From assembly GCF_041821065.1 (NCBI RefSeq), contig NZ_JBGUAX010000001.1, positions 62,001 through 126,000 on the forward strand: a stretch of DNA of 64,000 nucleotides. Reading direction: 5' to 3'. Each line of letters opens with the position of its first letter. The stretch's first letter is position 1. Below the pieces are notes generated by a model. That model was not told where the DNA came from and did no database searches. It saw nothing but the letters and a program-made list of their open reading frames with translations. The translations under genes were made by a program, and so were the position numbers. This document shows, one piece after another, positions 6,849-47,532 of the stretch. This DNA is from Egicoccus sp. AB-alg2 (GTDB lineage: Bacteria > Actinomycetota > Nitriliruptoria > Nitriliruptorales > Nitriliruptoraceae).

Positions 6849-8429
6849 TCAGTCGCTGCGGGTGGCCGGCGGCAGGACGCAGGCGCCGCCGAACGGGCTG
6901 GCCGCCGCACGGGTGGCCAGATCGGCGTTCACGGTCAGCCACGACTGCAGCACCGGTGCGGTGACCGCCGGGGCTGCGCCACGTTCGGCAGGCATGTCGA
7001 CCTCGAGGATCTCCATGCCGCGGGTCGGGTCCTGGGTGTAGACGAGGTTGGTCTTGCGTCCCGTCTGGTGGCCGTCGGCGTCGTACTCGGGCACCCACTT
7101 CGCGCCCCAGGTCTCCTGCACGCCGGTGATCCAGAAGCCGACCTGGCGGATCTCGGTCGGGTCGTTGACGTCGAGGATGCGCAGGCCCTGCTGGTACCAG
7201 CCCTGCGCGACGTAGCCGTCCTGGTGGTAGTCGAAGTAGTGGGCCGAGCAGAACGCGCCGGCGGGCGTCTTGACGCCGGTGTCGAGCAGTTCCGTGTTCC
7301 ACTGGTCGAGTGGCGTGATCGTGCCGCCGTCCTGGACGCCGTCGGGGTTGATGGTCGGGTCGAGGTCGGGGACGTGCCAGGTCTGGAACGAGCCCTCCGA
7401 CGCGCAGGTGGTGTCGATGTAGTCCTCTTCGGTGACCAGCAGCACGTTGCCGCGGTCGACGTGCGGGCTGCCGCTGTCAGTCACGCGATGGCCCTTCGCG
7501 TTTCCCTTCGGGTTGGCCTTGCCGGGACGGTGCCGCGGGCCGGTGAAGTCGTCGGCATTCGGACGCAGGCTGTTGTGGGAGATGAAGTTGTTCCAGGCCG
7601 GGTCGCGGCCGTGGACGTCCGACGAGTTGAGGACGACCGGTGCGGTGGGGTCGGTGACGTCGTAGCCGACGATGCCGCCGGTGCCGACCCACCACGTCAC
7701 CTCGTCGGCGTCCACGTCCCAGTCGTGGCCGATGCCGGTGGAGAAGGCCGCGTTGCCCTCCATCGGCTGGCCGGTGACCTGGTCGAGGACAACCGGGTCG
7801 TCGAGGTCGGTGAGGTCCACGACGTCGAAGGCGGCGCCGCGGCCGGACGAGTAGGCGTGGGTGCACTCGCGGTTGGCGCAGCCGACGGTGTGGGTGTCCG
7901 TGCCGACGTTCACACGTGAGCGGATGTAGGGCGAGGCCGGGTCGGTAACGTCGACAACCACAATCTCGTCGTAGGTGCCGACGTCGGTCGGGTCCTCGGT
8001 CGGTGTGACCCCGATGCTGTCGAAGCCGACGAGCACGAACTTGGTGCCGTCGGCGCGCTCGCCGAGCTTGACGTTCTCGTTCTGGAACAGCGCCATCGGC
8101 ACCGCACCGAGCAGCCGCGGCAGCCGCGGGTCGCTGATGTCGTAGGTGCGGATGCCCGTCAGCGTGGATGCGTACATCAGCGGTGCGTCGCTGGCGAACG
8201 CGACCGAGATCACCGACGGCTCCGGCAACAGGCCGACCGGCGTGACGTTCGGACTCGGCAGCAGCGTGTCGGCCGTCGCCTCGACGATCGAGACCGTGAA
8301 GCCGACGACGCCACCGACGGTGCCGGTCACGTCGTCCAGCGTCGACCCCAGGCCGGTGGCCCCGAGCGGTGAGGTCGCCAGCACCAGCGGCGCGACGGCC
8401 AGAGCGGCGTAGCCGCGGATCCTTGTCAT
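6849..8429 (-). CDS. Secreted LVIVD-repeat beta-propeller protein
   Basis: The ATG at 8429 follows a strong GGGAGGGG site, giving a 526-residue protein with an N-terminal signal (RIRGYAALAVAPLVLATSP). The body has recurring YDISDP, VDVTDPASPYI, VVDLTDLDDP, YDVTDPTAP and LDVNDP blocks of the LVIVD repeat family, which form beta-propellers on cell-surface or exported proteins. Conserved His/Asp clusters (GIGHDWDVDADE, CSAHYFDYHQDG) may bind metal. No enzymatic function can be assigned. It stands alone, facing the plus-strand pilus locus across a 240-base spacer. Confidence 0.8.
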   Translation of the reverse strand: MTRIRGYAALAVAPLVLATSPLGATGLGSTLDDVTGTVGGVVGFTVSIVEATADTLLPSPNVTPVGLLPEPSVISVAFASDAPLMYASTLTGIRTYDISDPRLPRLLGAVPMALFQNENVKLGERADGTKFVLVGFDSIGVTPTEDPTDVGTYDEIVVVDVTDPASPYIRSRVNVGTDTHTVGCANRECTHAYSSGRGAAFDVVDLTDLDDPVVLDQVTGQPMEGNAAFSTGIGHDWDVDADEVTWWVGTGGIVGYDVTDPTAPVVLNSSDVHGRDPAWNNFISHNSLRPNADDFTGPRHRPGKANPKGNAKGHRVTDSGSPHVDRGNVLLVTEEDYIDTTCASEGSFQTWHVPDLDPTINPDGVQDGGTITPLDQWNTELLDTGVKTPAGAFCSAHYFDYHQDGYVAQGWYQQGLRILDVNDPTEIRQVGFWITGVQETWGAKWVPEYDADGHQTGRKTNLVYTQDPTRGMEILEVDMPAERGAAPAVTAPVLQSWLTVNADLATRAAASPFGGACVLPPATRSD

Positions 8430-8669: not shown

Positions 8670-8876
8670 ATGACGCAGGACCTCTTCATCAAGCTGGCCG
8701 TCGCCCGCAACAACTTCGTCGCGCGCACGCGCGACGGGGTTGAGGGTGCCACGGCCGTGGAATACGGCCTCATGGTCGCGCTCATCGCGGTTGCCATCAT
8801 CGGGGCCGTGCGACTGATCGGCACCAACCTCGACACGATGTTCGATGGCGTGGCCAACGACATCGCCGGCACCTGA
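8670..8876 (+). CDS. flp: Flp/Fap-type pilin 1
   Basis: A 68-residue type IVb pilin. A short basic leader ends at Gly26, followed by ATAVEYGLMVALIAVAIIGA, the Flp signature with Glu at mature position +5 beside Tyr, and one hydrophobic helix. It would be cut by a TadV/CpaA prepilin peptidase (not in this window) and assembled by the CpaF/TadB/TadC machine encoded downstream. An AGGAG site precedes the start. The leader is longer than usual for Flp, while the mature part of about 42 residues is typical. Confidence 0.92.
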   Translation: MTQDLFIKLAVARNNFVARTRDGVEGATAVEYGLMVALIAVAIIGAVRLIGTNLDTMFDGVANDIAGT

Positions 8877-8954
8877 GATTGCTCGAATCTAGGCGGGGCG
8901 GCTGACAAGGTGTCGCCGCCCTGCCTGTATAGGCACGATGCAAGCGAGGTCACG

Positions 8955-9107
8955 ATGCTGGAGAAACGCGAAGAGGGAGCGACTGCCGTCGAGTACTCCC
9001 TGATGGCGGGCCTCATCGCTCTCGCCATCATCGCCGCGGTCCGCTCCTTAGGAACGGCCGTGCTGGGCATCTTCGTAGATCTTTCGTCGCGGATGGGCTG
9101 GGGATGA
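8955..9107 (+). CDS. flp: Flp/Fap-type pilin 2
   Basis: The start chosen is ATG 8955 (MLEKREEG), giving a 50-residue pilin with a very short leader, then ATAVEYSLMAGLIALAIIAA. A 15-codon upstream extension has no pilin character. Its stop overlaps the TadE start (ATGA), so it is translationally linked to the minor pilin gene and may be a minor rather than the major subunit. Confidence 0.85.
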   Translation: MLEKREEGATAVEYSLMAGLIALAIIAAVRSLGTAVLGIFVDLSSRMGWG

Positions 9108-9490
9108 CATCGCGGGGAAGAAAGCACCGCAACGAGGGGGCCGCGGCCGTAGAGTTCGCGCTCGTACTGCTGCCCCTGCTGGCAATTGTGGCCGGCATCA
9201 TCGACTTCGGGTTGATGCTCAACGCCCAACTCAGCCTGACGCACGCCGCGCGTGAGGGCGTCAGGGTTCTCGCCATCGGCGACGGAGACGGGGCAGCCGC
9301 AGCGACGACAGCCTTCCAGCCATCGCCGGGCGCGACTGGATTCGCTGCCACGCCGACAGGGTGCCCGAACGCCGCTGGCCGAGCCGTGATGCAGACATCG
9401 GCAACCTACGAGTACTACTTCCTGCGGGTGTTCCTGCCCGAGGACGGACGACCCCTCCAAAGTCGGGCGGTAATGCGATGCAACGGCTGA
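9104..9490 (+). CDS. tadE: TadE-like minor pilin/pseudopilin
   Basis: A 128-residue protein with the TadE-like N-terminus NEGAAAVEFALVLLPLLAIV: a Gly cleavage site, Glu at +5, then one hydrophobic helix ending IIDFGLMLNAQLSLTHAARE, the usual TadE continuation. The C-terminal half carries two Cys and aromatic residues and should be extracytoplasmic. It overlaps the second pilin gene by four bases and the next gene by 13. Third-position GC is lower here than in flanking genes. Confidence 0.85.
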   Translation: MTSRGRKHRNEGAAAVEFALVLLPLLAIVAGIIDFGLMLNAQLSLTHAAREGVRVLAIGDGDGAAAATTAFQPSPGATGFAATPTGCPNAAGRAVMQTSATYEYYFLRVFLPEDGRPLQSRAVMRCNG

Positions 9491-10455
9491 ATCGAGACGA
9501 TGGCGCAGTGACGGTCATCGTCGCCCTCCTGATCGTCACGCTCCTCGGCGTTGCCGCAATCGCCATTGACGTCGGAAATCTGTTCTGGGAACGCCGCGCC
9601 CTTCAGAATGGCGCCGATGCCGCTGCACTTGCGGCCGCTCAGGATTTCGCGTCCGGTAATGGTGCAGCAGCAGCAGAGGTGGCTGCGCGTGACTTCGCCG
9701 ACAGCAACAACAGTCGTGGCGCTTGGGTCGAGTCCTTCACACAACCGACTTCCAACAGCGTCCGGGTGGTGACGCGCTCCGGCAACATCGATGGCGAAGT
9801 GCCACTCAACTCGATCCTCGCGCAGTTTCTTGGCAGGGAGACATACTTCGCTCGTGCCACTGCCACTGCGGCCTGGGGCGGCATGGGTGGTGGGTCCACG
9901 GTCCCGCTCGCCTTCTCCTGGTGTGAGTGGGATCGGTTCACCAACGGGCTCGGGATTGATGCATTGCCGACCGCCAACCTAACGGTATTCCACCACACAT
10001 CCTCCGCGTCGGATGAAAACGACTGCGATGGGCCCGCCGGTCAGGACTATCCCGGTGGCTTTGGCTGGTTGGACACCAATGGTTCCGGAACATGCACCGC
10101 CGATGTGATTCTGGGGCAGGTTGGAGGCGACACGGGCAACTCGCCTCCTGTGCCGGCAAGTTCGACGGGATGCACGAGCGCCTTCTTCGCGGGCTTGATC
10201 GGTCAGACAGTTCTCATGCCCGTATTCGGGGACGTTACGGGCACTGGTAGCAACGCCACGTACGACGTGTTGGGGTTCGCTGCCCTGGAGGTCACAGGCT
10301 TCAGGTTCGGCGGCTCGCTCACCGGTGGTGTGGTGCCCTGCGGCAACCCGAATCGCTGCATCAGTGGGCGATTCGTCGCCTACTACGACCTCGGCCAGGA
10401 ACCCGTGGAGGGTGCGCCGGACTACGGCGCTTACGTCATTGGTCTGACCGGTTAG
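9478..10455 (+). CDS. TadG-like pilus-assembly protein
   Basis: Starting at ATG 9478 gives 325 residues. The N-terminal DDGAVTVIVALLIVTLLGVA is a membrane anchor, followed by AIDVGNLFWERRALQNGADA and ALAAAQ, the TadG/putative Flp-assembly signature. The rest is a Ser/Thr/Gly-rich extracellular domain with several Cys (for example CGNPNRCIS). There is no vWA domain as in long TadG proteins; a separate vWA lies in the TadB fusion downstream. Codon use is clearly less GC-rich than in neighbouring genes. Confidence 0.85.
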   Translation: MQRLNRDDGAVTVIVALLIVTLLGVAAIAIDVGNLFWERRALQNGADAAALAAAQDFASGNGAAAAEVAARDFADSNNSRGAWVESFTQPTSNSVRVVTRSGNIDGEVPLNSILAQFLGRETYFARATATAAWGGMGGGSTVPLAFSWCEWDRFTNGLGIDALPTANLTVFHHTSSASDENDCDGPAGQDYPGGFGWLDTNGSGTCTADVILGQVGGDTGNSPPVPASSTGCTSAFFAGLIGQTVLMPVFGDVTGTGSNATYDVLGFAALEVTGFRFGGSLTGGVVPCGNPNRCISGRFVAYYDLGQEPVEGAPDYGAYVIGLTG

Positions 10456-10465
10456 GAGTATCACC

Positions 10466-11278
10466 ATGGTTCGCAAGGTCTTGGGTGTAGTAGGGGCCGT
10501 GCTGCTCGCGTTGATCGGCACTGGGCTTCTGGTGGCATACGTGCGGGGGGCCGAGGACCGAGCACTCGCCGGGGAGGAGGTCGTCGAAGTTCTGGTCGTC
10601 CGCGAGGACGTGCCGAGGGGCACCGAGGCCGAGGCACTCGGCGACTACGTCGCGGTGGAGCGTGTCCCGAAGAAGGTTCGCGCTATCGGTGGCATCGACG
10701 ACCTCGATGCCCTCAACGGGCAGGTCGCGGCCGTGGACCTCGTGGCCGGCGAGCAGCTGGTGCGGCCGCGCTTCGTCACGCCGGCGCAACTCGAGGAGGA
10801 ATCGCAGATCGAGGTGCCCGAGGGGCTGCAGGAAGTGACGCTGTCCCTCGAACCGCACCGAGCCATGGGCGGGAAGGTGAAGCCCGGGGACACCGTCGGG
10901 ATCTTCGCCTCCTTCGACCTGAACGACAAACGTGAAGACGAGCAGATCGCGGAGGCGGAGAACGAGGACTACCGCCAGCGTCTCAGCGAGACCTCCAAGA
11001 TGATCCTGCACAAGCTGCTGGTCACGAGCGTGCAATGGGAGCAGGTCCCGCAGACGCCCGACAACACCGGTGACGAGGCTTCCTCGGGGGCGTCGGGTGG
11101 GCGGATCGAGCTCGCTCCCACCGGCAACCTTCTCGTGACCTTCGCCGTCAGCGTCGAGCAGGCCGAGCGAATGATCTTCACCGCCGAGCACGGCACCGTC
11201 TGGCTGTCGGCCGAACCGGAGACCGCCGACGAGGACGGCAGCGTCCTGCGGACGCCGGGGAACATCTACAATGACTGA
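10466..11278 (+). CDS. cpaB: Flp pilus assembly protein CpaB/RcpC
   Basis: A 270-residue protein with one N-terminal membrane helix and then a SAF-like domain (VLVVREDVPRGTEAEALGDY; AVDLVAGEQLVRPRFV), followed by the RcpC/CpaB domain (GLQEVTLSLEPHRAMGGKV, KPGDTVGIFASF). CpaB proteins are periplasmic or cell-wall-side parts of the Tad channel that may bind glycan. An AGGAG site lies before the ATG, and the end overlaps the CpaE gene by eight bases. Confidence 0.9.
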   Translation: MVRKVLGVVGAVLLALIGTGLLVAYVRGAEDRALAGEEVVEVLVVREDVPRGTEAEALGDYVAVERVPKKVRAIGGIDDLDALNGQVAAVDLVAGEQLVRPRFVTPAQLEEESQIEVPEGLQEVTLSLEPHRAMGGKVKPGDTVGIFASFDLNDKREDEQIAEAENEDYRQRLSETSKMILHKLLVTSVQWEQVPQTPDNTGDEASSGASGGRIELAPTGNLLVTFAVSVEQAERMIFTAEHGTVWLSAEPETADEDGSVLRTPGNIYND

Positions 11279-35762: not shown

Positions 35763-36962
35763 TCAGAAGCGGACGGTGGCCGGCACGTGCGCGGCGTTCG
35801 TCCAGGCCGCCTGGGTGCCGGCGAGCCGCCAGAGCAGCGCGGCGGTCTGGGCACGGGTGACCCGGTCGGTGGGGGCGTATTCGGTCGCGGTCTTGCCGGT
35901 GACGACCCCGTGTTCCGTCAGGAACGCCACGGCCGGGTCGAAGTGCTCGCGGGCCCGGACGTCGATGAACGGATGCCGGCCGGCGGGCGCCGGGCTGCCC
36001 ACGAAGCGCCACAGGAACGACGCCATCTGGCCGCGGGTCACGGTAGCCGACGGGTCGAACCGTCCATCGCGGGTCCCGGTCACCACGCCGGCCTGCTGCA
36101 GCCAGGCGACGGCGTCGGCGTAGTAGGCGTCTGCCGGCACGTCCCCGAACGTGTGCGGCGCCCGCGGGGCGGGCTTGCCGGCGGTCCGCCACAGGAACGC
36201 CGCCATCTGTGCGCGCGTCACCGGGCGTGACGAGCCGAAGCTGCCGTCGGCGACGCCGCCGGTGATGTCGTGGCCAACCATCCACAGTACGGCGTCGTGG
36301 TGCCACGCGTCGGCGGGCACGTCGCGGAACGGGCCCGACGTGGACGCCGGCGTCGACGAGTTCACGTCGGGCAGCGGGCGCCAATAGGAGGTCCTGCGCA
36401 GCGCACCGTCCCAGGTGAAGCTGAAGTGGATGTGGTCGGTGTGCGGGCTCGCGCCGGTGTAGGGACGCCAACCCTCGTCGGGCCGGTAGGCGTTCCAGAC
36501 CTGGCGGTTCCAGATGATGTACATGATGCCGAGCCGGCGGGCCATGGCGTGGCGGTTGCCGTGCTCGTCGGTGGCGAGCAGCCAGCCGAGCACCTCGTCG
36601 GCCTTGCGCCGGTCGCTGGCGTTGTTGGCGTTCAGCATCCAGTCGTAGGCGCGGCCCTCCTTGTGCTCGCTCTTGCCGCCTTGCGAGCAGTTGCGCAGGA
36701 TGCCGCCACCGTTGGCGCCGTAGGTGCGCTGCAGGAGTGCGCGGAAGTCACGGACACCGGGCTGCTCCTCGGACAGGCACTGGCTCTGGCCCTCGTAGCG
36801 CGCGTAGGCGTCGATGTTGGCGCCGTACGTGCCGCTCGGCAGCGGGCTGGCCAACGCCGGTGCGACGAGCGTCGCGAGCAGGCCGGCGAGGAGGGCGGCG
36901 ACGGTCAGCGGGCGGAACAGACGGGCGGGCACAGCACAACGCACGGGCTTCCTTGCCTGCAT
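35763..36962 (-). CDS. Secreted peptidase-like protein with three SLH domains
   Basis: Start ATG 36962 gives 399 residues. A signal peptide (LTVAALLAGLLATLVAPALA) is followed by a domain with GGKSEHKEGRAYDWMLNANN and ASPHTDHIHFSF, which matches zinc-dependent M15/ARB_07466-type cell-wall proteins (His, Asp and His ligands). Three S-layer homology repeats follow, starting FRDVPADAWHHDAV, FGDVPADAYYADAV and FIDVRAREHFDPAV. The SLH part would anchor it to the wall polymer, where the first domain could cut or bind peptidoglycan stems. It has an unusually long upstream leader. Confidence 0.88.
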   Translation of the reverse strand: MQARKPVRCAVPARLFRPLTVAALLAGLLATLVAPALASPLPSGTYGANIDAYARYEGQSQCLSEEQPGVRDFRALLQRTYGANGGGILRNCSQGGKSEHKEGRAYDWMLNANNASDRRKADEVLGWLLATDEHGNRHAMARRLGIMYIIWNRQVWNAYRPDEGWRPYTGASPHTDHIHFSFTWDGALRRTSYWRPLPDVNSSTPASTSGPFRDVPADAWHHDAVLWMVGHDITGGVADGSFGSSRPVTRAQMAAFLWRTAGKPAPRAPHTFGDVPADAYYADAVAWLQQAGVVTGTRDGRFDPSATVTRGQMASFLWRFVGSPAPAGRHPFIDVRAREHFDPAVAFLTEHGVVTGKTATEYAPTDRVTRAQTAALLWRLAGTQAAWTNAAHVPATVRF

Positions 36963-37307
36963 GGGACGGGCGACACCTGCCGGCAGCCTCGGCGTGAGCG
37001 CGCGCGAGCAGAGATGCGGGCAGGACCCCTTGCTTCGGACGTTGGCCGCGACAGCTTCAACGCAGCGGCACGAACGCGCGGGCTGCGCCCGGCCACGCCG
37101 CTGCCGTGGCGGGGCTGACAACGACCCCACGACGGAGCTGCTCGCCCCAGTTCGCGGGTGGCGGCACACCTGAGGGGAGCGACCGTCCGCGCGCGCAAGT
37201 TTACGTAATGTCGCTTATGGGGGAACTGCGAGGTGCCGGGAGAGGGGTCGCGCGGACGACTGCGACATGGAATGGTCGCGCCTCAGTCTCGCGGTCCATC
37301 GCCCACC
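36963..37307 (-). promoter_or_regulatory. Long leader and promoter region of the SLH protein gene
   Basis: These 345 bases hold no supported gene. A minus-strand TAAACT at 37198-37203 in an AT-rich patch (TTACGTAA nearby) is a plausible -10 element, giving a transcript leader of about 230 bases rich in G/C self-complementary blocks (for example GCCCCGCCACGGCAGCGGCG). Leaders of this kind before cell-wall hydrolase genes are often riboswitches such as the c-di-AMP ydaO type. A GGGGCGA block is present, but the conserved AGCTAACCTCG block is not seen, so no riboswitch is claimed. Confidence 0.35.
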
Positions 37308-37697
37308 TCAGTCAGTCTCGACGACCTCGAACCAGAGCTCGCCGCCGCCGTCGGCGCGGTACGAGACGGTGATCTCTTCGTTCTTGGCGATCGGCCGCAG
37401 TGACCACAGTTCGGCCGACTCGGTGTCGGGCACCAACCACAGGTACGCGTTCGGGTCCGGGCTGTGGTTGCACATCGACGACACACCCAGGACCAGGCCG
37501 GCGGACCCGTCGTCGTTCCACTCGTAGACGTAGTCGTCGACGATCGTCTGCTGCAGCGCGGCGCGCTGCTCGGCCGGGACGACCAGGACCGGCGCCTGCA
37601 TGAGCAGCGTGTCCGCCGCGATGCGACGGGTGGCGAACAAGCCTCGTCCGGCGACGGGCGACTCGCGGACTTCGTACAACACCGGGCCTCCGGGCAT
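37308..37697 (-). CDS. SET-domain protein (putative protein-lysine methyltransferase)
   Basis: A 129-residue protein from ATG 37697. It has the SET-domain motifs in order: SPVAGRGLFATRRIAADTLL at the N-terminus, SSMCNHSPDPNAYLWLV (the NHS.xPN cofactor and pseudoknot motif) and KNEEITVSYRADGGG (the GEExxxxY motif). It lacks the Cys-rich post-SET segment. SET enzymes methylate lysines using S-adenosylmethionine; the substrate here is unknown. The upstream in-frame extension belongs to a pseudogene scrap, so the internal ATG is preferred. Confidence 0.8.
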   Translation of the reverse strand: MPGGPVLYEVRESPVAGRGLFATRRIAADTLLMQAPVLVVPAEQRAALQQTIVDDYVYEWNDDGSAGLVLGVSSMCNHSPDPNAYLWLVPDTESAELWSLRPIAKNEEITVSYRADGGGELWFEVVETD

Positions 37698-37754: not shown

Positions 37755-38016
37755 CGACCACTCCCCGACGCTCCTGGCCCGAACATAGGCGGGCTCCTGC
37801 TCGGTCAACTCCAGTGCCACCCACAGCCGGGTGCCGGTCGCGGCCGCCACCCGCCGCTCCTCCCCCAGCAACGCCAGCTGTGCCTCGGGAGTGTCGCGGT
37901 AGGCCATCACCACGATCCCGTCCACGACCGCGGCGATCTTGTCCAGCAAGGTCCCCCGGCCGCTGGAGGCCGGGACCGTCCGTGGTCACCACCACCACCT
38001 CGATCGGCACGTCGGA
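37755..38016 (-). pseudogene. Remnant of an uncharacterised gene, frame-shifted
   Basis: Two minus-strand readings join only with a frame change near 37945: VPIEVVVVTTDGPGLQRP in one frame and LLDKIAAVVDGIVVMAYRDT followed by EERRVAAATGTRLWVALELT in another. The second reads like the C-terminal part of a conserved actinobacterial protein family that I recall only by its DGIVVMAYRDT-type motif. No start, no complete domain and no ribosome site are visible, and it fades into the leader of the SET gene. It is most likely a decayed gene end between the protease and SET genes. Confidence 0.5.
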
Positions 38017-38090: not shown

Positions 38091-39059
38091 TCAGTAGGCC
38101 GGGTAGCCGTGCTTGGCGGCCGACGCGGCGTCCAGCACCTTGATCGCCTCGTCGATGCTGTCGACCGGCAGCAGTCGCATCCGCCCCGGGTTGAAGTCCT
38201 CGAGCTCGTGTGCCTGCACGGCGGGGAACACCAGCACGTCGGCGCCACGGTTGCGTGCGGCGGTCGCCTTCGCCGGCAGGCCGCCGATGCGGGTGACGGC
38301 GCCGTCGCCGCGGATGCCGCCGGTGCCGGCGACGTGACGCCCGTGTGCCAGGTCGTGGTTGGCCACCTCGGCGTAGGTCATCAGCGCGATCATCAGCCCG
38401 TGCGAGCGGCCGAGCGCGAGGTCGCGGAACCAGCCGATCGGCGCGAAGCTGGCGAGCTGGCCGCCGATCGCCGCGTCGAGGTCCCCCGGCGCGAGGTCGA
38501 CGACGTGGATCTCGTCGAACGGCAGCAGCGGGCCGGGAGCGGCATAGGTCTTGCCCTCGTCGGACTGGAAGATCACCGGTGACTCGGCCTTGGCGACCGC
38601 GCGCTGCCAGGCGCGGCGGTCGACGAGGTCGACGCCGTTCATACGGGTGATCGTCATCTGCTCGGGCAGGTAGCCCTCGGTGGGGCCGACGCCCTCGACC
38701 AACAGGCCGAAGTCGACGTCGATCCCGGCACGCGAGAGCCCGACCGCGACGGCGGCCGGCTCGTTGACGCGTGGACGCTGCGCCCCGGCAGCCGTCCGCA
38801 TGTTCCGCGTGTGACCGACGTCGACGAGCCGGTCGGCCACCACCTCGGCCACCATGGGCGGCCGGCCGACGGTCAGCCACGACCAGCGGCCGGGCGGGTT
38901 CACGACCTGCCCTTCGACGACCAGCCGGCCGTCCAGCCGCCAGGCGTTCCCGGGCGGGTCCTCGTCCACCAGGTGGACCCAGGGCACGGGCGCCAGCAGC
39001 ACCAGCATCGCGAGGATCAGCAGCTTCGTGGCGCGCATACGGCGTCGCGGCTGCGTCAT
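38091..39059 (-). CDS. Membrane-anchored PDZ/Lon-type (S16) protease, YlbL-like
   Basis: A 322-residue protein with one N-terminal membrane helix (LLILAMLVLLAPVPWVHLV), a middle PDZ-like part (FGLLVEGVGPTEGYLPEQMT continuing) and a Lon proteolytic domain. The catalytic Ser219 is in GRSHGLMIALMTYAE and Lys264 in RIGGLPAKATAA, spaced 45 residues as in Lon. The serine loop differs from the usual GPSAG. HVAGTGGIRGDGAV is the conserved block between them. It should cut membrane or extracytoplasmic proteins. GGGAGG lies seven bases before the ATG. Confidence 0.85.
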   Translation of the reverse strand: MTQPRRRMRATKLLILAMLVLLAPVPWVHLVDEDPPGNAWRLDGRLVVEGQVVNPPGRWSWLTVGRPPMVAEVVADRLVDVGHTRNMRTAAGAQRPRVNEPAAVAVGLSRAGIDVDFGLLVEGVGPTEGYLPEQMTITRMNGVDLVDRRAWQRAVAKAESPVIFQSDEGKTYAAPGPLLPFDEIHVVDLAPGDLDAAIGGQLASFAPIGWFRDLALGRSHGLMIALMTYAEVANHDLAHGRHVAGTGGIRGDGAVTRIGGLPAKATAARNRGADVLVFPAVQAHELEDFNPGRMRLLPVDSIDEAIKVLDAASAAKHGYPAY

Positions 39060-44775: not shown

Positions 44776-45984
44776 TCAACGCCCGTCCGTGCGGCCATCT
44801 CGTGTGACGAGCACGCGGCCGCCCGCGTCCGTGCGCACCACCTCGAGCCGCCACCCGCGAGGCCCTCGCGGGGGCCGACCCAGCGCCCGCCACCAGGCGG
44901 CGACGTCGATCTCCATGCCGTGGGTGGCGATCTCCACCTCGTCCACGTCGACGCTCCGCAGCCAGGCCCGCACGGCCTTGGGGCGCACCGGCAGCACGGC
45001 GTGGATCTGCGACGCCCGGTACCACGGGCTCGGCGAGGGCGGCTCGTCGAGGGTCAGCAGCGCCCGTGCGTCCGCGAGCCGCCGGGCGCCGACCTCGGCA
45101 CCGATCGTGTCGTGCAGGCGTGCCCGCACCGCGGCCGGCGCCACCCGCAGCAGCACCGCACCGGGCGCACCGACCGGCAGGCGGGTGCGCGGCGCGTCGG
45201 CCGGGCGGGTCCGGGTCACGCCCGATGGCAGCAGCGTCGCCCGCGCGCCGACCCCCGGCGTGCGCAAGGCTGCCGTCCACACGATCGACTCGCGCAACTC
45301 GCCCTCGACCTGGACGAACTCCAGCTCCGCGTCGCCGGGCAGGTCCGGGTCGGCGAGGTCGACGGCCGGCGAGAGCACCACGCCGCCGCCGCGTGCGTGG
45401 GACTGCGCCGCCAGCAGCGCCCCGACCGGCGGGAGGTGCTCGGCCAGTCGACGCACCCGACGCCCGTCGCGGCGACGGCCGGGGTCGGCGTGGAACACCG
45501 CGTCGTCCGGCACGGCGACGTGGAGCGCGTCCGCGCAGCACGTCCCCACCTCCAGCCCCAGCTGTCGCGCGTTGTGCCCGAGCAGGACGAGCCGGGCCTC
45601 GTCGAGATCGACGGCGGTCACCTCGGCGCCGTGGGCGGCCGCGGCGAAGGCGTCGCCACCGAGCCCGGCACACAGGTCCCACACGGCGCCGCTGCCCAGC
45701 CGGCGGGTCCGCCAGTCGCTGACCGTGGGGTCGCTGGCCTGTTCGAGTCCCTCGCGCGTGAACAGCAGCCGGTCGGCCTGCGGCCACCGTGCCCGTGCCC
45801 GCCGTCGGGCCACGGCCGCGGCCACGACCGCCGACGACGCCGCCGGCGACAGACCGGTCCGGCGCAGACGCGTGACGACCGCGAGCTCGGCCTCGCCGGC
45901 GTCCAGCGCCGCCGTCACGTCGTCGACGTGAGGCGTGCCGTCGGTGACGAGCCACCGGGCGGTGGCGGCGTCGAGCGTGTCCAC
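44776..45984 (-). CDS. THUMP-like class I methyltransferase
   Basis: A 402-residue protein starting with GTG after AGAGGGA. The methyltransferase core shows VWDLCAGLGGDAFAAAAHGA (motif I), VTAVDLDEARLVLLGHNARQ (motif II) and DAVFHADPGRRRDGRR, a DPxR active-site-like block. The C-terminal region (HDTIGAEVGARRLADARALL; AVRAWLRSVDVDEVEIATHG) is the THUMP-like domain of this actinobacterial family. RNA is a likely substrate but unproven. Confidence 0.82.
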   Translation of the reverse strand: MDTLDAATARWLVTDGTPHVDDVTAALDAGEAELAVVTRLRRTGLSPAASSAVVAAAVARRRARARWPQADRLLFTREGLEQASDPTVSDWRTRRLGSGAVWDLCAGLGGDAFAAAAHGAEVTAVDLDEARLVLLGHNARQLGLEVGTCCADALHVAVPDDAVFHADPGRRRDGRRVRRLAEHLPPVGALLAAQSHARGGGVVLSPAVDLADPDLPGDAELEFVQVEGELRESIVWTAALRTPGVGARATLLPSGVTRTRPADAPRTRLPVGAPGAVLLRVAPAAVRARLHDTIGAEVGARRLADARALLTLDEPPSPSPWYRASQIHAVLPVRPKAVRAWLRSVDVDEVEIATHGMEIDVAAWWRALGRPPRGPRGWRLEVVRTDAGGRVLVTRDGRTDGR

Positions 45985-46629: not shown

Positions 46630-47532
46630 ATGAGACTTCTTCGACTCGACGACGACGCGCCGGACCTCGGTCCCGACCCCGTACTCGTGCTCTCGCTCGA
46701 CGGGTGGACCGACGCCGGCGAGGGCGGCACGGCCGCCGCCGACGCGCTGCGCGGCACCGCCCATCCCGTGCCGTTGGGCACGTTCGACGGCGACGCGCTC
46801 TACGACTACCGCGACCGTCGGCCGCAGCTGGCCATCGACCGCGGCATGCTCGCCCAGCCGGTCTGGCCGGAGCTCACGCTCGAAGCGCTGCGTCCGACCA
46901 GCGGACCGGCCCTGCTGCTGGTGACCGGCGCCGAACCGGACCTGTCGTGGCAGCAGCTGGGCCGTGACCTGCTCGAGCTGGCCAACCGCTTCGGTGCCAC
47001 CCGCTACGTCGGTCTCGGCGCCGTGCCCGGACCGATCCCCCACACCCGGCCGGTGCAGATCCTGGCGACCTCCAGCGACCCGCAACTGCTGGAGCGCATC
47101 GGCCGGCCGCACGAGCAGCTCGTGGTCCCCTCGTCGTGCCAGTCGGCGATGGAGGCGCTGCTCGCGGCCGGGGGCCTGACGACGCTGGGACTGTGGGCGC
47201 GGATCCCGCACTACATCGCGGGCGAGTACCCGGAGGCGGCGCGCGCCTTGCTGGAACGGTTCACGGGTTACCTCGGCACGCCCGTGGACCTCACCCCCTT
47301 CGACGAGGCGGTGACCGACAACCGCGCCAAGCTCGACCTCGCCGCGGCCTCGTCCGACGAGGTCACCGAGCACGTCCGCCAGCTCGAGCGGCTCTACGAC
47401 GCCGAACTGGAGGCCGAACGGCTGGCCGACGGCAACGGTGCCGGGGGCGCCGACTTCACCGAGGCGCAGGTCCCCTCCGCCGACGACCTCGCCGCGGAGA
47501 TCGAGCGGTTCCTGCGCGGTCGCACGGAGTAG
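46630..47532 (+). CDS. PAC2-family protein
   Basis: A 300-residue protein of the PAC2 (proteasome assembly chaperone 2-like) family: VLVLSLDGWTDAGEGGTAAA near the N-terminus, LLVTGAEPDLSWQQLGRDLL, YVGLGAVPGPIPHTRPVQIL and LGLWARIPHYIAGEYPEAAR. The C-terminal 60 residues are charged helix. Actinobacterial PAC2 proteins are of unknown function, though linked by homology to proteasome assembly. Only a weak ribosome site is seen. Confidence 0.88.
   Translation: MRLLRLDDDAPDLGPDPVLVLSLDGWTDAGEGGTAAADALRGTAHPVPLGTFDGDALYDYRDRRPQLAIDRGMLAQPVWPELTLEALRPTSGPALLLVTGAEPDLSWQQLGRDLLELANRFGATRYVGLGAVPGPIPHTRPVQILATSSDPQLLERIGRPHEQLVVPSSCQSAMEALLAAGGLTTLGLWARIPHYIAGEYPEAARALLERFTGYLGTPVDLTPFDEAVTDNRAKLDLAAASSDEVTEHVRQLERLYDAELEAERLADGNGAGGADFTEAQVPSADDLAAEIERFLRGRTE

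Follow-up and report, generated by a model that had tools for sequence, protein, structure and literature searches.

The window analysed here, a stretch of 64,000 nucleotides from Egicoccus sp. AB-alg2, carries a gene for a compact SET-domain protein and, on the opposite strand, a gene for a histone with a lysine-rich tail (Table 1). The first-pass annotation had described a compact SET protein with NHSPDPN and EEITVSY motifs, and this description is borne out: the motifs lie at residues 77-83 and 107-113, respectively, and the Pfam SET match (E = 6e-15, 56 bits) is above the cut-off of 22.4. SET was the only domain found when the 129-aa protein was searched against Pfam up to E 1, and an NCBIfam search up to E 0.1 gave no match. 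The protein is composed of this single domain, with one cysteine per 129 residues and without a Cys-rich post-SET region. The genome (4.84 Mb, 29 contigs) has one PF00856 match, namely this gene.

Table 1. Features around the SET gene and the tailed histone gene in the window.
Feature	Position	Strand	Basis and remarks
Compact SET-domain protein, 129 aa	37308..37697	-	ATG start at 37697; Pfam SET, 17-row alignment, AlphaFold model
C-terminal remnant of another gene	37755..37946	-	tblastn match in L054 9431-9595 (78% over 55 aa)
PDZ/Lon_C-like protein	38091..39059	-	Pfam Lon_C 4.3e-05; synteny
THUMP-like class I methyltransferase	44776..45984	-	Pfam Thump_like 6.9e-08; synteny; conserved divergent neighbour of the tailed histone
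Lysine-tailed histone, FtF type by model and signature, 117 aa	46147..46500	+	Residues 1-60 form the tail, with 21 K, and residues 61-117 the histone fold
PAC2-family protein	46630..47532	+	Pfam PAC2 2.7e-42; synteny; conserved downstream neighbour of the tailed histone

Twenty-four columns are invariant in the 17-row alignment of SET orthologues, among them G17, R18, N77, H78, P82, N83, E108 and Y113. The NHxxxPN residues and the tyrosine of the C-terminal motif (N77, H78, P82, N83 and Y113) are therefore among the positions conserved in 17/17 rows; we take the invariant motif residues to be those of S-adenosylmethionine binding and the catalytic tyrosine. From these residues we infer catalysis, and since invariant residues alone do not prove it, the activity of the SET protein stays predicted. 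In pairwise comparisons of seven SET orthologues by the Nei-Gojobori method, dN (0.09-0.30) was lower than dS (0.46-0.86) in 21/21 pairs, with dN/dS of about 0.15-0.47, the dS values being rough because the host genome is very GC-rich. Matches to this SET protein were found in 17 of the 61 genomes searched, own genome counted. Because dN is below dS in all pairs and the gene recurs in these 17 genomes, it is kept well beyond chance. A scan of named contig records for relatives yielded three only, from Nitriliruptoraceae or Actinomycetota MAGs.

The open frame of the SET gene continues upstream to 37949. A longer SET protein starting in this extension was ruled out, because the extension contains the C-terminal remnant of a different gene, and also because the aligned orthologues start near 37697. 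By tblastn, no slice other than L054 matched the remnant; its counterpart at the same place in the congener G003 is a long open frame, signal-like at its start. A gene remnant directly upstream might suggest that the SET gene itself is decaying or encodes a non-catalytic leftover. This is highly improbable, since the upstream remnant belongs to a different gene, whereas the SET gene has an intact frame, evolves under purifying selection and shares conserved motif residues across 17 orthologues.

The next gene upstream encodes a PDZ/Lon_C-like protein and is the same-strand upstream neighbour of SET in 4/4 genomes of the genus. In G001 this protein is matched on two contigs (L052 923 and L079 4467), one match adjoining SET and the other close to the tailed histone, where the contig ends, which may reflect two copies or an assembly matter. 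On the other side of SET, positions 35763-37169 encode a protein with three S-layer homology stretches, without a match in the other slices searched. Using a rough ORF picker within 6 kb, with several contigs ending near SET, we found that SET neighbours recur mainly inside genera (g1, g4, g5 and g11). Two clusters span two genera, cluster 6 (g4 and g5) and cluster 17 (g7 and g10), and may be wrong-frame ORFs; no neighbour is common to more than two genera. The gene neighbourhood was thus dropped as a hint of the substrate. A mobile origin of the gene was also considered and rejected: only distant relatives, with 30-34% identity, were found on eight plasmid and four phage records, among them Priestia, Cytobacillus and Agrobacterium plasmids and a Stenotrophomonas phage, the four phage records being two phages that are each apparently listed twice. 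Elsewhere in the window, Flp pilin and RcpC/CpaB genes at 8670-11278 are probably part of a Flp/Tad pilus cluster.

By sequence, the nearest solved relatives of the SET protein are Schizosaccharomyces pombe Set7 (5h6z, 1.4e-16) and PBCV-1 vSET (1n3j, 1.9e-9), followed by MLL-type domains. An AlphaFold model built from 17 sequences is of moderate quality (mean pLDDT 76.1; residues 115-129 under 50). A Foldseek search with this model ranked Set7 first (5h6z, 1.9e-10, 36% identity) and vSET second (3kma, 2.1e-10). The gene is real, and its product is a predicted, probably active compact protein-lysine methyltransferase of a known kind.

The second protein had been described in the first pass as a lysine-tailed histone-like protein. 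It is real, and its core is in fact a histone fold, as indicated by sequence matches and by the core model. In the PDB, the core matched HLp (9qt0, 4.7e-6), Bdellovibrio HBb (8fvx and 8cmp) and HTkC (9f2c). Pfam matches stayed below the cut-offs, with DUF1931 (0.0053) and CBFD_NFYB_HMF (0.037) on the core and HC2 (7.7e-9) on the low-complexity tail when the whole protein was searched. The core model has a pLDDT of 94.3 and TM scores of 0.93-0.96 to HLp of Leptospira. Its helices span residues 7-15 and 25-46, and the short alpha3 is a three-residue helical stretch at 54-56. The R-N-R-T-D signature that PMC11390915 gives for face-to-face (FtF) histones corresponds to R43, N47, R49, T51 and D56 of the core, all invariant in 17 rows. 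The first R and the N of this signature are reported to be missing from bacterial dimer histones (PMC11390915, PMC12701072). Judged from the single-chain model and the signature, the protein is an FtF-type histone closest to Leptospira HLp, in a category that is itself defined by a torus-shaped tetramer. A tailless histone paralogue is encoded on contig 5 of the same genome (G000:C5:31848).

The tailed histone gene has its own conserved locus. It lies between the genes for the THUMP-like methyltransferase and the PAC2-family protein in 12 of 14 genomes with a tailed histone; of the remaining two, the G023 contig covers the PAC2 side only and G020 was outside the comparison. The THUMP-like methyltransferase is a more constant neighbour of the tailed histone than SET is. 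G035, from a sister family, has an apparent doublet with two histone cores in one frame (L088 7465-7818) in addition to its tailed singlet.

The first pass had placed the SET gene within 9 kb of the histone gene and had noted that the two do not form one operon. Both statements are correct: the genes are 8.45 kb apart from start to start, and an operon link is ruled out by the opposite strands and the several genes between them. SET shares a slice with the tailed histone in the own genome and G002 only, both of one genus, and was found in none of the 12 other tailed-histone slices, which are 3.5-20 kb long and include two from G006. Separate contigs carry the two genes in G001. For G010, G018 and G019, the slices are 19-20 kb long and contain the block from the ABC genes to PAC2 without SET. 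Contig ends limit the view in several genomes, and in some MAGs a linkage could be missed because the contigs are short. The test for a conserved linkage thus came out against it. Since slices such as those of G010, G018 and G019 lack SET, the closeness of the two genes seems to reflect a chance position of SET in this genus.

We then compared the distribution of the two genes in 36 genomes of the order Nitriliruptorales. Any SET was found in 19 genomes and the compact orthologue in 17; the other two carriers, G010 and G029, have divergent SETs, that of G010 with a Cys-rich end. A tailed histone was found in 14 (G000, G001, G002, G006, G007, G010, G012, G018, G019, G020, G023, G026, G030 and G035). 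This status was assigned by eye from the sequences: G011 was scored untailed from a 77-aa open frame alone, and the genomes without any histone core (G015, G021, G024 and G033) were also scored untailed. Two cores were left out of the tailed count, a tailed one of G006 (L097) that is Lys-poor and Arg-rich and one of G030 that is cut off; both genomes have a tailed histone regardless.

By genome, with p values that ignore shared descent, any SET was present in 11/14 tailed versus 8/22 untailed genomes (p = 0.019), in 8/9 versus 6/17 of those at least 80% complete (p = 0.014) and in 5/6 versus 2/9 of those at least 90% complete (p = 0.041). The corresponding numbers for the compact SET were 10/14 versus 7/22 (p = 0.039), 7/9 versus 5/17 (p = 0.038) and 4/6 versus 1/9 (p = 0.089). 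By genus (n = 15), where the power is low, any SET was present in 5/7 tailed versus 3/8 untailed genera (odds ratio 4.2, p = 0.31) and the compact SET in 4/7 versus 2/8 (p = 0.31). Misses in incomplete genomes, such as G026 (75%) and G020 (71%), may be false. The first-pass annotation had named co-occurrence of the two genes across genomes as one check on their link. An association is present by genome and is not significant by genus, so that a lack of co-occurrence is not clearly what we found.

Several genomes hold one gene without the other. G003 is a congener assembled as a single contig (97% complete). It has kept SET near the PDZ/Lon-like gene as well as the PAC2 and THUMP-like genes, with about 130 bases between the latter two at the place where its relatives have the tailed histone. 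No tailed histone was found in G003, the only histone found being a tailless one. In genus g11, the compact SET is present in 5/5 genomes and the tailed histone in 0/5 (73-83% complete). Hence SET is not gone wherever the tailed histone is absent; it persists in G003 and in genus g11. Conversely, no SET was found in G035 (96% complete), whose tailed histone occupies the same locus, and G010 (one contig) has a tailed histone without the compact SET. RpoB was usable for 18 of the 36 genomes (two partial; G011, a weak 19th match, was left out). In the 18-row tree, of whose inner branches 5/15 are firm, the four SET/tail combinations need at least seven changes. One weakly supported group of nine rows (80/77) includes 7/8 compact-SET rows and 6/7 tailed rows. 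Combinations vary inside this group, where G007 (both genes) stands beside G024 (SET only), and G003 (SET only) falls within the genus of the window.

A sample of 396 Actinomycetota genomes, which we take as identical across the SET, histone-core and compact-SET profile (A1) searches by its size and handles, gave a wider view. Any SET was found in 29/396 genomes, 9/20 in the order versus 20/376 outside. The first pass had called bacterial SET enzymes uncommon, which fits the phylum but not this order, where 19/36 genomes have one. The histone core was found in 19 genomes, of which 18 are among the 20 of the order and one, from outside it, is a borderline match (6.6e-4). Lysine-tailed FtF-type histones are thus present in Actinomycetota, with the core almost only in Nitriliruptorales in this sample. 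Both SET and the histone are enriched in the order, and this is one evolutionary contrast. The A1 profile matched 16 genomes, 12 of them at E < 1e-15 (seven in the order and five outside). A histone match was found in 0/5 of the outside carriers (G089, G164, G203, G233 and G292). Therefore, SETs of this type are not dependent on the histone.

If the SET protein is a methyltransferase, several substrates compete within that reading. One is the KKTA tail of the nearby FtF-type histone, with the SET protein as a chromatin writer. The tail offers 21 lysines, the genome-level association, with an odds ratio still at 4.2 by genus, and the shared enrichment in the order are in its favour, and there are precedents: in PMC3980110, cpnSET is reported to methylate Hc1 and Go1-SET to methylate MC1-alpha. 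It is, however, quite unlikely. The genus-level comparison, the retention of SET in G003 and genus g11, the tailed histones of G035 and G010 and the tailed-histone slices without SET all stand against it. Moreover, NUE did not methylate Hc1 according to PMC2904774, and Go1-SET left the M. mazei histone-like protein unmethylated according to PMC3980110. The first-pass idea of a link between SET and the lysine tail was reasonable in view of the precedents, but the proximity on which it drew was seen in two genomes of one genus only, and the two genes occur apart naturally. The writer-tail pair is plausible, its chemistry having precedent; the association by genome is weakly for it, and the separations and the missing linkage are against it.

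Another candidate substrate is a different lysine-tailed protein. A strict lysine-pair pattern matched three further places in the own genome besides the histone. As named from a reading of their sequences, the proteins encoded there are a phasin-like coiled-coil protein whose KKTA tail is long, a short protein that has KKTA at its N-terminus, and topoisomerase I with its C-terminal tail. The phasin-like protein is encoded at about position 7000 of G000:C1 (L139), and relatives of it with similar tails were read in several genomes. The pattern matches all seven genomes that have the compact SET and no tailed histone, and lysine-tailed proteins were read in 7/7 of them from part of the matches. 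However, the pattern matches 52/61 relatives, mostly without SET, and a reversed control pattern also matches many, so that co-presence says almost nothing. We regard such a protein as an unlikely substrate.

A third candidate is a translation or other housekeeping protein, such as a ribosomal protein or an elongation factor, without a connection to chromatin. Several eukaryotic SET enzymes act on ribosomal proteins and elongation factors. The A1-profile SETs of actinobacteria without a histone match and the plasmid- and phage-borne relatives are not predicted by a histone-tail role and are in favour of this candidate, whereas the patchy presence of the compact SET (17/36 genomes of the order) argues against an essential mark. 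A housekeeping substrate is possible but somewhat doubtful.

Taken together, the SET protein is fairly likely to be a protein-lysine methyltransferase of the compact Set7/vSET-like kind, made up of a single domain and dependent on S-adenosylmethionine. Its gene is conserved but accessory and free-standing in Nitriliruptorales. The enzyme would methylate a single lysine or a small number of lysines in an endogenous protein of the cell, to which the gene neighbourhood does not point. The substrate may be lysine-rich or nucleic-acid-associated, a class suggested by precedent and by the abundance of lysine tails, the tailed histone being one candidate among several. A broader proposal is a chromatin marking system of Nitriliruptorales, in which the compact SET would methylate the lysine repeats of the tailed FtF histone or, where this is absent, other KKTA-tailed nucleoid proteins. 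We consider this very unlikely. If true, bacteria would have a counterpart of the histone-tail methylation of eukaryotes, and on a genuine histone fold. The order is a good testing ground, because its genomes include carriers of both genes, of SET alone and of the tailed histone alone, and the single-contig genome G003, which keeps SET while the tailed histone is absent, is a natural experiment.

To our knowledge, the substrates of SET enzymes from free-living bacteria are largely unknown. Among the matches listed in our literature search, which mostly did not cover subscription papers, none dealt with a SET enzyme whose target is a histone-fold protein of bacteria, and a search for Nitriliruptor and histone turned up no relevant title among the matches listed. 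Prokaryotic chromatin proteins have already been published as targets of SET enzymes, in the disputed case of cpnSET and Hc1 and in that of Go1-SET and MC1-alpha.

Among known systems, S. pombe Set7 (5h6z, 5ww0) resembles the SET protein as a compact SET domain aligned over query residues 8-124, with the SM.NH...PN and.SY motifs and the WFE end common to both. It differs in being eukaryotic, and its PDB title names a histone methyltransferase, a substrate class not assigned to the bacterial protein. PBCV-1 vSET (1n3j, 3kma) is likewise a single-domain SET of 119 aa, presumably also without a post-SET domain. It is viral, however, and its PDB name, histone H3-Lys27 methyltransferase, gives a target not assigned to the bacterial protein.

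Bacterial SET genes are reported from more than 500 genomes in PMC3980110. As described there, the chlamydial system is alike in having a bacterial SET enzyme (cpnSET/NUE) and a histone-like protein in one genome. It is unlike in that Hc1 and Hc2 are described as histone H1-like and NUE as a secreted effector (PMC2904774). Go1-SET of Methanosarcina mazei is also a prokaryotic SET enzyme, with a native DNA-binding protein, MC1-alpha, as its in vitro target, but it is archaeal and left the histone-like protein of its host unmethylated (PMC3980110).

Two papers state that singlet histones of prokaryotes or bacteria generally or mostly lack tails (PMC12701072, PMC10627809), and most bacterial FtF histones are described with positively charged tails (PMC11390915, PMC12701072). 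The tailed histone resembles FtF histones of other bacteria, for example HLp of Leptospira: residues R41, N45, R47, T49 and D54 of D4GZE0 correspond to R43, N47, R49, T51 and D56 here, and in both proteins, judging from the text, the chain ends one residue past the signature D (PMC11390915, PMC12701072). It differs from them in its host phylum, Actinomycetota, which is outside the phyla given as predominant in the main text of these papers, and in having a KKTA repeat tail together with a tailless paralogue in the same genome.
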